This document shows positions 18,533-24,911 of a stretch of DNA of 26,585 bases, piece by piece. The translations under genes and the position numbers were made by a program. Under the pieces are notes generated by a model that searched no databases, had not been told where the DNA came from, and saw nothing but the letters and a program-made list of their open reading frames with translations. Within the stretch, counting starts at the first letter, position 1, and each line of letters starts with the position of its first letter. Origin of the DNA: Globomyces pollinis-pini (Eukaryota; Chytridiomycota; Chytridiomycetes; Rhizophydiales; Globomycetaceae). The stretch lies in the NCBI GenBank assembly GCA_025399215.1, contig MU621290.1, positions 1-26,585 of the forward strand, written 5' to 3'.

Positions 18533-21500
18533 TTATAAAACACAAGGTTGAGTTCCAGCCAACAATTGCAACAACCGTATCAGATCAGCAGGTTCCGTGA
18601 CATGTGAATCAGCTCTTGTCATTTTCGTAGCACTACCAATGGTAACTGTAAAAATCCCATCTTCTCTGATTTGACTCTTACGCAAGACTCGAAACATATC
18701 TTCATCCGTTCGATCATCTCCTGCACAAATGACAAAATCACACCCAGTACGTGCTGTCACCAATCGTTTCACTATTTCACCCTTGTTCATACTAATCGGT
18801 CGTACCTAATCAAATATATAAATTGTAATGGATTTACTTCAAGGTTTTTTTTACCAACCATGACTTCAACAGGGAGTTTGGAAAGAATGGCATCTTCGAG
18901 ATGATGTTGACATTCTTTGGCTTGGAAAAGTCCATAGGATGGATCAGCTAATCGATAATGCCATGTAATCGAACATCGTTTATGTTCAACAAACGATCCT
19001 ACACAAAATCAACCACAACAATCTCCCACCTTGTGTTCGTTCAGTATAATAATTGAAAATCTCGGCAACTTCAACTTTCCAAGCCATATCCAATTCAGCA
19101 GCCAAATTCAACCATTTACCTCCAGGATATTTACTAGAATAAACAAAAAGGTTGTTACATGAATGATCCATGTTCGGCTGATAACCCTAACCCTTTGATA
19201 TGTCCCAACCATTCTTCAAGTGCATCTTGATCTCGCCCTGAAATGATAAAGACGACATTCTTGGGATCAGCTACCAACACCTTGAGTGCTTCCAACATGG
19301 CCGGAGGCGGTACAGCATCTTTTGGCTATATAAATCAATCAACCTAAACATCAACTTTACCAGTTTCACTATGGGTGTCAATGTTCCCTATAATTTATAC
19401 ATCATGAAAATCATACATCATAATCAAATAAAAGTAAACGACGTTGACTTTGTGTATACTGTTGATGGACATTGGCAAAATCCAATACTGGTGTTGGATT
19501 ATCTTGTAATTGTACAGATGATTTCGAGATCAATTCCTTAATGAACGATTGGGCCCAGAATTGTGAAGTATGGCTAGTCACATATGAATACAATTGCTAT
19601 CATTAAACAACTAAAATGTGAAATACATCATGTTTGATTTGACGGTCTTCGATGGATTTGGTTAAAGCATCTTGGATGGCATTGGCTACACCAAGTGTAT
19701 CCCATGGGTTAACAAGAATAGCGCCTACGGTTATCAAAAAATTAGATACCGGCCACTAGATATCAAAACAAAATAGGGGATTACTGGCGCCAGCGGTGCC
19801 TGTGAACTCACTCAAAATCAAAATGCCATGATTTCCTTTCTGACACACCACATAATCATGACTAGTGGTATTCATCCCATCACGTAACGGTGTAATCAAT
19901 GCAACATCCGCAATCGACTATGATGAGTTCGTTATGATGGTACCATGAGTGCAAAATATTCTTCAGGGTCGAGATGATGATGGTAATGATGAACTGGAAC
20001 AAATTCGAGAGATCCGAAATTGCCATTGATTCGTGCGATAGAGTCGGATATCTTGGCGGCAATGTTGGGATTGGCTTTGTTGGAACTTGTGGATACTTGA
20101 ATTAATACTACCTGTTGTCGTTAGTACAATTTTTAGATTCACCTTTGATCATTAATGAGATCTTTGAATAAACCTTTATCATCAATATGATTCTTTATTT
20201 TACCTTTAATAGTGAATAATCAGTCAATATACCTATGTAATAAAATCAAATTCAAATTCACAAACCTTATTATGCCATTCAGGATATAACTCCAAAAACT
20301 TTTCAAATGCATCCAATTTCTGACTGATTCCTTTAATATGATCCATAGAATCACGCCCTATAATAATAATCTGTAATCAACATCATCAGTAAATCAAACC
20401 TTGTCTTTATATAATGTTGAGATATGTTTGATCTTGTTCTGTACAGCTTGGGATTGACTTTGGTTAGTAGTAGTGGTGGGTACCGATATGTTTCGACGCG
20501 GTTGATATCAATCCCGATAGCTAAGGTGAGTTAGATGGGTGTTACGAAAGATGCCGATGGTGATGTTGAACCCTTGGTATTCGACGCCAGTGGGTGAAGA
20601 TTCGCAGCCAATGACTCGAGTACAACTACTGATAAAGTGTCTGGCATGGGAATATGTTTGGAATCCAATGACGTTTGCTCCAAGTAATCCTTTTTTTCTG
20701 TTTAGTATTGTTTGATGTACCTTTAACGTTAGTTTTAGTTTTATATTGGTGAATGTAGAGACTTTGGTAGGTTTCTGGTTGGGTGGGATGTTAATGATTA
20801 TGATAGTAATTGAAAATATGTGTTTGACAGGAGGTCATTTTATACTATTTTTCACACAGTAATTTTACAGTATGTGCTGACAGTAAAAATGTGAACTATG
20901 TGATTGACAGGGTTATTTGACAGGCGTGTTTTTGACACTGTAATATTTACAAGACAATAGTTTATACTCTGTGATTGACAGGGAGAAGTTTAAATAAAAT
21001 AACCATTGCGAGTTTAAATAATGCAATGCGAGTTGAAGTAACACATTTTGAGTTTAATTAACGCCATGTGAGTATAAATCACCAATTGTGAGTTTAAATA
21101 ACGGAATGTGATTTTGTCCAAAACAATAGCAATCATTGTGCATTAGACAATTAAAGTCCAAAAGAAAAAAAATCAAAGCTGGTCATAATAATTGTAGATT
21201 GATAGTTTGTATAACATTAAATGATTGTAGAGTTAATTGATGGATGAACATTATGTGATTGTAGAGTGTTGCATCAATATTTTAGAGTGATATTTTGTAT
21301 AAAAATCCGGAGAATTAAAGGTTGAATAAAGTGATTAAGTTGAATACCTTTGAGTATTTCAGAACGTCCTAAGAATAAGAAATAGAAATCTTTAATTACT
21401 GGGTAAACATCTGAATATTTCAGATGATGGAAAGGGAGTATGTAAAAAGAAACCTATGGCGGCATTGGGTAAAGCAGCTCGCAAAAGAGCAGGAAGTAGC

Positions 21501-22178
21501 CTATGAATTAGAGTGAGATTGATAATGTACCTGTGTATTAGAGTGAAATTGATGATGTACCTATGTATTAGAGTGGGATTGATGATGTACCTAAGTATTA
21601 AAAGTGAGATTATAGTACATGAAATGATAATCTTGAATCCATACTAAGATGAGATTTGGAATGGATTACTTAGATCACCAGGTTGATAGTGTAATAAGAC
21701 AGCATCAGCAAAAGCTTGATTTACTTTACAGTAGTGATGATAATTTTTATTTTCCAATATTCCATCTTGAAATTAGTTTTTTTGATATTACCGGTAGCAT
21801 TATCCCATAATACGTAATGAAATAGAGGCCATAATTCTGATTTACAGTAACCTTCGTAATGACCTTTTGAAATATTATCAGGGTATTCTACGACGACACC
21901 TTTTGTTATTAATTTTAGTAGATACCATTTAATTTTTTGAATAAGTTTAATTTTTGATCATTTGAGAAATCATTATTATGACCGAAATGGATAGTTTTTA
22001 AATTTAAAGAATTTGTTCCTTTTTAATTAATTTATAATAGTATGTATACCTTATGATTAATTAATAATAAAGTACCTGAGAATTGAGTAGAATGACCTCT
22101 TTTTAATATGAAATTATTATTTGAATCAATTAACCACGGCAATTGATGAGTGATGACCAACAGTCGTTGATGTTGCAT
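18533..22178 (-). CDS. TPS2: Bifunctional trehalose-6-phosphate synthase/phosphatase (TPS-TPP), 21 exons
   Basis: Exons: 22178-22076, 22018-21926, 21899-21792, 21765-21670, 21643-21619, 21500-21400, 21368-21348, 20689-20546, 20520-20484, 20457-20400, 20370-20266, 20111-19944, 19917-19785, 19755-19750, 19724-19627, 19596-19417, 19387-19361, 19325-19159, 19133-19030, 18998-18838, 18805-18533; 735 residues with consistent phases. The GT20 half has SELWPLFHY, IWIQDYHFM (Asp138), GFFLHTPFPSSEIFRCLP, GANVIGFQTY, and R268/K275 in GRDSMDHIKG. The HAD phosphatase half has DYDGTLTPI (about 490), IISGRDQ, LSAEHGSF and GDDRTDED (about 674-681). UDP-glucose and glucose-6-phosphate binding residues and both HAD aspartates appear kept, so the protein may make trehalose by itself or act as the Tps2 subunit. 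Intron structure is extraordinary: concatemers, a 658-bp intron and tiny exons. Confidence 0.9.
19750..19755 (-). other. 6-nt microexon in the TPS-TPP gene
   Basis: TGGCCG lies between a 29-bp intron (19756-19784, ending TATCTAG) and a 25-bp intron (19725-19749, starting GTATCTAAT). Including it gives ATG GCC G|GC, so the protein reads FTGTAGAMAGAILVNPWD. That matches the usual number of residues between SEFTG and GAILVNPWD in this family. Skipping it keeps the frame but removes two residues. Confidence 0.7.
20112..20265 (-). repeat. Concatenated intron, five GT-AG units (TPS-TPP intron 11)
   Basis: The 154-bp intron between HNK and VVLIQV divides without remainder into five abutting segments: 20265-20233 (33 bp), 20232-20204 (29), 20203-20174 (30), 20173-20143 (31) and 20142-20112 (31). 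Each begins GT and ends AG. Units 2-4 share a degenerate ATTRATGAT(C)AAAG end, showing ancestry by duplication; unit 5 has a good ACTAAC branch site. Each unit is the size of an ordinary intron in this window. Confidence 0.75.
20690..21347 (-). repeat. 658-bp giant intron rich in repeats (TPS-TPP intron 7)
   Basis: It lies between EILKG and LLGANVIGF, which are contiguous in the family, so nothing inside needs to be coding. It is some twenty times longer than a typical intron here. Inside are a 20-bp minisatellite (21001-21120), two copies of TGTGATTGACAGGG (20899-20912 and 20970-20983) with a weaker one near 20818, and two related AACATTA..ATTGTAGAGT copies (21213-21233 and 21247-21267). Confidence 0.75.
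21001..21120. repeat. 20-bp minisatellite, six copies
   Basis: Six units start at 21001, 21021, 21041, 21061, 21081 and 21101, in strict 20-bp register, with plus-strand consensus near AC.CAATGTGAGTTTAAATA. The units differ by several bases. The array lies wholly within the giant intron of the TPS-TPP gene. Confidence 0.8.
21501..21618 (-). repeat. Concatenated intron, four GT-AG units (TPS-TPP intron 5)
   Basis: The 118-bp intron between DYHF and MLLP consists of four head-to-tail units: 21618-21591 (28 bp), 21590-21561, 21560-21531 and 21530-21501 (30 bp each). Each runs from GTAC to a terminal AG, and each has its own CTAAT-type branch site about 6 nt before the AG (in the first unit TTAAT). 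The last three are highly similar. The flanking join AT|G gives the invariant methionine. Confidence 0.88.
22019..22075 (-). repeat. Concatenated intron, two GT-AG units (TPS-TPP intron 1)
   Basis: The 57-bp first intron splits exactly into a 26-bp unit (22075-22050, ending ATAAG) and a 31-bp unit (22049-22019, starting GTATAC, ending AAAAG). Only removal of both restores the frame into SLNLKTIHFG. Similarity between the two units is weak, so this example is less certain than the longer arrays. Confidence 0.5.
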
Positions 22179-22357
22179 AGAAAACTAACCCTAACTCATA
22201 ATAACCCTAATACTAATTGTTGTAACCCTAACTCATAATAACCCTAATACTAAAGTAACCCTAATACAAGTCATAACCCTAACTAGTAAAGTAACCACTA
22301 GGGTTCAAAATACAAATTTCAATACAAAAAAAAAACAAAAAAGAAAAAGATACCCAC
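22179..22357. promoter_or_regulatory. Divergent promoter with six telobox (AACCCTAA) sites
   Basis: This 179-bp gap separates the start codons of the TPS-TPP gene (minus) and the poly(A) polymerase gene (plus). Exact AACCCTAA occurs at 22187, 22203, 22224, 22240, 22257 and 22275 (first bases), spaced 16-21 bp, all in one orientation. A 30-bp segment with two boxes (22186-22215) is repeated exactly at 22223-22252. In other fungi Tbf1/Teb1-type Myb proteins bind such motifs in promoters as well as at telomeres, so a shared regulator of both genes is plausible. Confidence 0.65.

Positions 22358-24911
<2,554 letters not shown>

Follow-up and report, generated by a model that had tools for sequence, protein, structure and literature searches.

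The window, that is, the whole 26,585-nt stretch of DNA from the chytrid Globomyces pollinis-pini (Rhizophydiales) that we analysed (contig MU621290.1), carries on its minus strand a gene for a trehalose-6-phosphate synthase / phosphatase, which was modelled over positions 19725..22178. At ten of the 14 intron positions in the modelled part there is a single intron of 25-31 nt, at three an array of abutting intron-like units and at one an intron of 658 nt. The spliced model is identical to the deposited G. pollinis-pini protein P0001 at residues 1-432 of 439, its final seven residues extending into another intron. The single introns, the 658-nt intron (21347-20690, minus strand) and the three arrays of 57, 118 and 154 nt are all missing from P0001, which keeps no unit.

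The 118-nt array (21618-21501, minus strand) consists of four GT..AG units of 28, 30, 30 and 30 nt with zero bases between them (GTACTATAATCTCACTTTTAATACTTAG, GTACATCATCAATCCCACTCTAATACATAG, GTACATCATCAATTTCACTCTAATACACAG and GTACATTATCAATCTCACTCTAATTCATAG). Unit 1 (21591..21618, GTAC..TTAAT..AG) follows an exon ending in TTCAT; unit 2 (21561..21590, GTAC..CTAAT..AG) shares 90% identity with units 3 and 4; unit 3 occupies 21531..21560; and unit 4 (21501..21530) precedes the downstream exon GCTACTTCC. The original prediction had placed four abutting units at exactly these coordinates, leaving unstated the strand, which is the minus strand. Taking out the array yields ..WIQDYHFMLLPALLR.., so that the joined exons read DYHFMLLP, and the site is free of gaps in both displayed alignments to solved relatives. 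The predicted absence of the 118 nt from the protein (DYHF|MLLP) is thus borne out by exact removal and by the identity to P0001. The array has the GT..AG ends and the branch-point motif of ordinary introns, whose U2 class we assume, and within the removed stretch AG is directly followed by GT, as in zero-length exons. Tandem Repeats Finder independently detected a repeat at 21500-21611 (period 30, 3.7 copies, 86% matches). Units 2-4 share 87-90% identity without gaps and all six unit pairs of the array were clearly alike. These identities support recent in-place tandem duplication of units 2-4, as had been suggested for this array.

The first array of the gene comprises two minus-strand units of 26 nt (22050..22075) and 31 nt (22019..22049), and taking out these 57 nt yields the QFSGTNS of P0001. 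The third array (20112..20265, minus strand) spans 154 nt in five abutting units of 33, 29, 30, 31 and 31 nt (20265-20233, 20232-20204, 20203-20174, 20173-20143 and 20142-20112), and its removal gives HNKVVLIQV. A 6-nt microexon (19755-19750, minus strand), flanked by introns of 29 and 25 nt, is retained in P0001. The 658-nt intron contains an imperfect 20-nt tandem repeat at 20997-21115, and close to its end AG|GTAC..AG is found on the minus strand.

The neighbouring gene, on the plus strand, codes for a poly(A) polymerase and contains three abutting units of 28, 32 and 27 nt at 22521..22607 (22521-22548, 22549-22580 and 22581-22607). With all three taken out, the product fits LILGKLNNLVKEW in the alignment to a solved poly(A) polymerase; an array of two units was rejected because it leaves nine extra residues relative to the best-matching solved poly(A) polymerase. 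Between the starts of these two divergent genes lies a CCCTAA-rich, telomere-like stretch (22186-22296). Neither the Rfam scan nor the tRNA scan returned any match in the window.

Single introns and arrays in other genes

A frame-based gene model of 20 sources totalling 200,021 known bases yielded 418 introns, 206 of which had good coding flanks on both sides. The 167 confident single introns of 20-45 nt had a median length of 28 nt (5-95% range, 24-34 nt). Since single introns are this short, each array unit corresponds to one normal intron and the length of the exon between units is zero. The units of the 118-nt array lie within this range and carry the expected signals, in agreement with the original prediction that each is a normal intron of this genome. 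Eight introns of the trehalose gene, six of which are units of arrays, provided the starting splice-site scores of the model; retraining then used its predicted introns between 20 and 45 nt, out of a searched length range of 15-160 nt. Early permissive runs of the gene finder produced a near-flat tail of long introns and over-extended the chains (four units for the true three in poly(A) polymerase, seven for five in trehalose synthase), so no array counts were drawn from them. The acceptor score, trained on single introns, was 3.29 for array units picked by spacing compared to 3.57 for single introns. GTAAGT is the donor in 8 of the 167 single introns, and its rarity among mini-introns possibly reflects two classes of introns in the genome.

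We assembled 27 arrays, namely the three of the trehalose gene, those of poly(A) polymerase and phosphoglucomutase, and 22 fetched candidates. The candidates form a non-random sample: six came from chained or neighbouring matches to a looser pattern, and sixteen had at least two overlapping rows among the listed AGGTA triples (see below). Exact removal has good protein support for 11 arrays in nine genes, and the other array genes contain 3 to 10 units. Array sites are ungapped relative to a solved relative in phosphoglucomutase (39+29+30 nt; GLRKR|VTVFQQ), a SAMHD1-like protein (five units; VSYY|VYLG), a histone deacetylase (six units; DVHH|GNGTQ) and an M16 protease (three units; LPHTLE|HLIFCG). 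The SAMHD1-like peptide has no Pfam match but matches solved SAMHD1 structures. The product of a peroxin gene with a seven-unit array, which we take to be PEX10, matches Pfam Pex2_Pex12.

In a gene for a ubiquitin-conjugating enzyme of the UBE2H / Ubc8 type, the array spans 195 nt in seven units of 25-30 nt. The deposited protein P0121 is 100% identical over the 167 residues of the array-free model and keeps no units. A 216-nt intron of the same gene is also absent from the deposited protein; this intron (L047) starts with GTAAGT and has CTAAC near its end.

The longest of the arrays by unit count, ten units and 285 nt, lies in a gene with a phytanoyl-CoA dioxygenase domain (L048). Its exact removal is backed by three relatives. 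The deposited protein, P0241, retains units 4 and 8 as 19 in-frame residues, while the three aligned relatives lack the insert. This insert is likely a misannotation, and possibly a case of unit retention. The arrays thereby illustrate a risk for annotation, as one deposited protein apparently carries two intron units as exons.

Protein support is weaker for four arrays, in short-chain dehydrogenase, RRP46-like, carrier-like and WD-repeat genes, whose peptides scored below the curated Pfam cut-off. For the remaining 12 of the 27 loci, an open frame or less was seen. At some loci the chain finder took in exon sequence: by frame, the last unit of L030 and L038 and the first of L031 and L037 are exon, and the ends of the chains at L032, L033, L035, L036, L039 and L045 are possibly exon, so that unit counts there are upper limits.

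AGGTA spacing across the genome

Pattern searches covered 18.55 Mb in 459 contigs. Three AGGTA words separated by 21 to 30 nt each (period 26-35) occurred 241 times in the whole genome (115+126), compared to 46 (17+29) for the reversed pattern as control. At a spacing of 41-50, the corresponding counts were 6 (1+5) and 40 (24+16). The 100 triple matches listed of the 241 represent 68 separate loci, and extrapolation of this ratio suggests about 160 loci for the full set. As the search pattern fixes the unit length at 26-35 nt, length is not independent evidence for the units found in this way.

Pairs of AGGTA, counted genome-wide in windows eight wide, followed the same trend, with 225 at period 13-20, 995 at 25-32 and 256 at 41-48. 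A further 309 pairs lay at 115-122, a distance of about four units, where arrays are among the matches and the count is not pure background. The reversed controls (1,075, 1,172, 1,169 and 1,041, respectively) exceed the observed counts, so only the variation with spacing is informative. Pairs also overstate the number of arrays, because a single intron between an exon ending in AG and an exon starting with GTA counts as well: 1 of the 167 single introns mimics a pair in this way, which by extrapolation would account for about 230 of the about 750 excess pairs. A looser two-unit pattern that included branch-point words was not enriched in the genome (255 matches compared to 298 in the reversed control).

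Another kind of tandem repeat was seen on contig C1 (21789-21966, minus strand). Its period is about 45, introns of about 29 nt seem to alternate with exon-like pieces of 15 nt, and it looks as though exon and intron were duplicated jointly.

Likeness of the units and their branch points

Core identity between units of different arrays, compared pairwise over the 27 arrays, averaged 0.555, with a 99th percentile of 0.727. In 18 of the 27 arrays no unit pair exceeded this percentile, and the adjacent units of these 18 arrays had a mean core identity of 0.563, practically the between-array value. Clear likeness was found for 13 of 106 adjacent unit pairs; it was clear in the 118-nt array and present to some degree in eight others, with near-identical neighbours in L030 (up to 0.95) and L031 (1.0), which likewise suggest recent duplication in place. 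Adjacent units of the ubiquitin-conjugating enzyme array, by comparison, were 0.52-0.62 identical over all seven units. With so few alike pairs, unit identity does not establish duplication as a general origin of the arrays. Some exon-like ends, and a poly(A) polymerase array of two units, were present in the first sets used for identity, motif and splice-score measurements; identity and branch points were counted again with most exon-like ends dropped and three units for poly(A) polymerase.

No sequence family of the kind expected of introners was found among the 27 arrays compared, and the window used as a query against the genome matched only itself. An exonic origin of the units was also considered, prompted by a unit of L031 (IQSIILIFK) that resembles the preceding exon (LQSMLIFK), but found no support, the likeness not being significant over all comparisons. 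Units scored on average 12.62 against their own flanking exons and 12.30 against the exons of other arrays, a measure by which old copies would be unrecognisable. Only 1 of 264 unit-exon comparisons lay above the 99% identity level, and the 'exon' in that comparison was in fact the third unit of poly(A) polymerase. Among 137 units, lengths were split 53, 43 and 41 over the three frame classes, with no clear preference for multiples of three.

The branch-point motif YTRAY, located 2-14 nt ahead of the AG, occurred at a frequency of 0.557 among the 106 units picked by spacing (59 of 105 distinct units), compared to 0.641 (107/167) among single introns. These 106 units come from 53 of the 100 listed triple rows, two from each and one duplicated, and were selected on AGGTA spacing, not on YTRAY. 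Shuffling the unit interior lowered the fraction to 0.226, and AG|GTA..AG stretches from anywhere in the sample, true introns included, gave 0.358. Within the 18 arrays of dissimilar units, 27 of 48 inner units carried the motif, compared to a mean of 10.8 and a maximum of 19 in 300 shuffles, although this set is biased toward YTRAY since the chain finder rewarded branch-point motifs.

Splicing and origin of the arrays

We consider it probable that each array strings ordinary spliceosomal introns of very small size into a concatemer with zero-length exons between them, that these introns are removed unit by unit and that spliceable copies of them multiply. Because the introns are so short, each unit would be recognised by intron definition, with a donor, a branch point and an acceptor of its own. 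Excision of any unit would join the preceding exon end or AG to the next GT or exon and thereby re-create an AG|GT junction, so that the remaining units could be removed afterwards, in any order, until the exons meet. Since neighbouring units share sequence at AG|GT, where an acceptor overlaps the following donor, they would be hard to process simultaneously, which points to sequential removal. Whichever upstream GT is paired with whichever downstream AG inside the array, the same mRNA could still result. If the whole array finally goes, such mispairing would be harmless, and an extra unit would cost little and be nearly neutral. Tandem duplication may thus add units in place, and the copies may later diverge without ceasing to be spliceable. 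We infer removal unit by unit, its order, near-neutrality and duplication as a general origin from the DNA sequence.

Another account, which we regard as unlikely, is that splicing uses the first GT together with the final branch point and AG and no other sites, the whole array leaving in one step and the inner units being neutral filler produced by tandem duplication of an intron. The final mRNA would be identical, and the removal of the 658-nt intron of the trehalose gene and of the 216-nt intron of the ubiquitin-conjugating enzyme gene indicates that length alone does not force stepwise splicing in this genome. However, were only the outermost sites used, inner branch points should drift to about the shuffled level, assuming that dissimilar units are old. 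Instead, the motif is kept both by spacing-picked units (0.557 versus 0.226 after shuffling) and by inner units of the dissimilar arrays (27/48 versus a mean of 10.8), thereby favouring, of the two routes that the original prediction had allowed, removal unit by unit over removal in one step. The donors point weakly in the same direction, as only 1 of 27 first donors of arrays (L044) is the GTAAGT that begins the 216-nt intron, in a comparison where some first units are probably exon and few long introns are verified. It is more doubtful still that intron-like elements such as introners were inserted repeatedly and independently at AG|GT, rather than being duplicated in tandem. The 18 of 27 arrays without a similar unit pair, in which neighbours are hardly closer than units of different arrays (0.563 versus 0.555), would fit such insertions, and one report (PMC3443670), in its available part, names AGGT as a site where introns are preferentially gained. 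Yet the arrays bear no family likeness to each other (mean 0.555, 99th percentile 0.727 over the 27 arrays compared pairwise), some have near-identical neighbours, and units of about 30 nt would leave scant space for a transposable element.

Some units might be alternative mini-exons, in which case the array would be a regulated means of adding short peptides through unit retention, as the 19-residue in-frame insert of P0241 from units 4 and 8 could be taken to indicate. We think this very improbable, given that the insert is missing in the three aligned relatives, that P0001 and P0121 retain no units and that multiples of three are not clearly favoured among unit lengths (53, 43 and 41 of 137). 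The arrays could also be an artefact, either of assembly or of GT and AG words that occur by chance in an AT-rich repeat. A split into two units is indeed not rare by chance: 5 of 37 long intervals from the permissive gene model split at AGGT, compared to 0-4 at permuted four-letter junctions, the 4 being for GGTA, which overlaps AGGTA. But the count of AGGTA triples varies from 241 to 6 with spacing, protein evidence supports exact removal well for 11 arrays in nine genes, and the units are mutually non-repetitive in 18 of 27 arrays, which indicates that repeat expansion during assembly is not their source. An artefact is hardly credible on these grounds.

With concatemers of spliceable mini-introns as the preferred reading, we also favour, if less firmly, an architecture that extends across the genome: probably several hundred arrays of 2-10 abutting mini-introns, which would be spliced recursively and copied in place at almost no cost. 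If so, introns would multiply within genes like a neutral satellite. Removal unit by unit would mean recursive splicing acting on very small introns, in the small genome of a fungus and in ordinary housekeeping genes. The arrays also offer natural test objects for the minimum intron that can be defined with a shared AG|GT, for the role of order in splicing and for intron multiplication.

Comparison with known systems

The original prediction knew of no described class of intron concatemers of this kind, and no account of spliceosomal introns that abut in arrays turned up in the open-access literature to which our search was confined. Open-access papers that name G. pollinis-pini, judged by title, include none about introns; one of them credits the genome to Amses et al. 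2022 (PMC13391722, available in part). A survey of fungal introns finds chytrids relatively intron-rich, and the words 'tandem' and 'Globomyces' are absent from the part of its text available to us (PMC8476143).

Introner elements, in the available parts of the reports on them (PMC9860276; for Amoebophrya, PMC7789003), resemble the arrays in that introns multiply within one genome. The chytrid arrays that we compared, however, share no sequence family, and their multiplication seems to occur in place. The gain of introns through tandem duplication or the expansion of repeats, as described in the accessible portions of two papers (PMC2395259, on Cryptococcus, and PMC3443670), likewise involves duplicated spliceable segments with AGGT borders. 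There, what is duplicated is exonic sequence or a repeat carrying an intron, and the new intron arises elsewhere, whereas the chytrid units lie at one place without exons between them.

Fungal stwintrons (PMC7138796 and PMC9024468, both available in part) are also complex intervening sequences made of spliceosomal introns and removed by consecutive reactions. In a stwintron, as these excerpts have it, one intron lies inside another, usually within a splice signal, whereas the chytrid units are consecutive, up to ten in number, each with its own complete signals. The excerpt of PMC7138796 uses 'sensu lato' for stwintrons that are not nested in a splice signal and describes a case in Lipomyces starkeyi with abutting donor elements, where removal can take place in one reaction or two. 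In the 118-nt array the units abut with their own ends and no intron interrupts a signal of another, which sets it apart from stwintrons in the strict sense.

Recursive splicing is known chiefly as a means to cut up long introns of animals, with examples at ratchet points in Drosophila. The likeness to recursive splicing and zero-length exons, as presented in the available part of PMC5126111, lies in a donor placed immediately after an acceptor (AG|GT), which permits stepwise splicing. For the chytrid arrays, stepwise use is what we infer. The pieces differ: in that source long introns are cut into pieces, whereas the pieces in the chytrid are complete introns, each about 24-34 nt long, and as many as ten follow one another.
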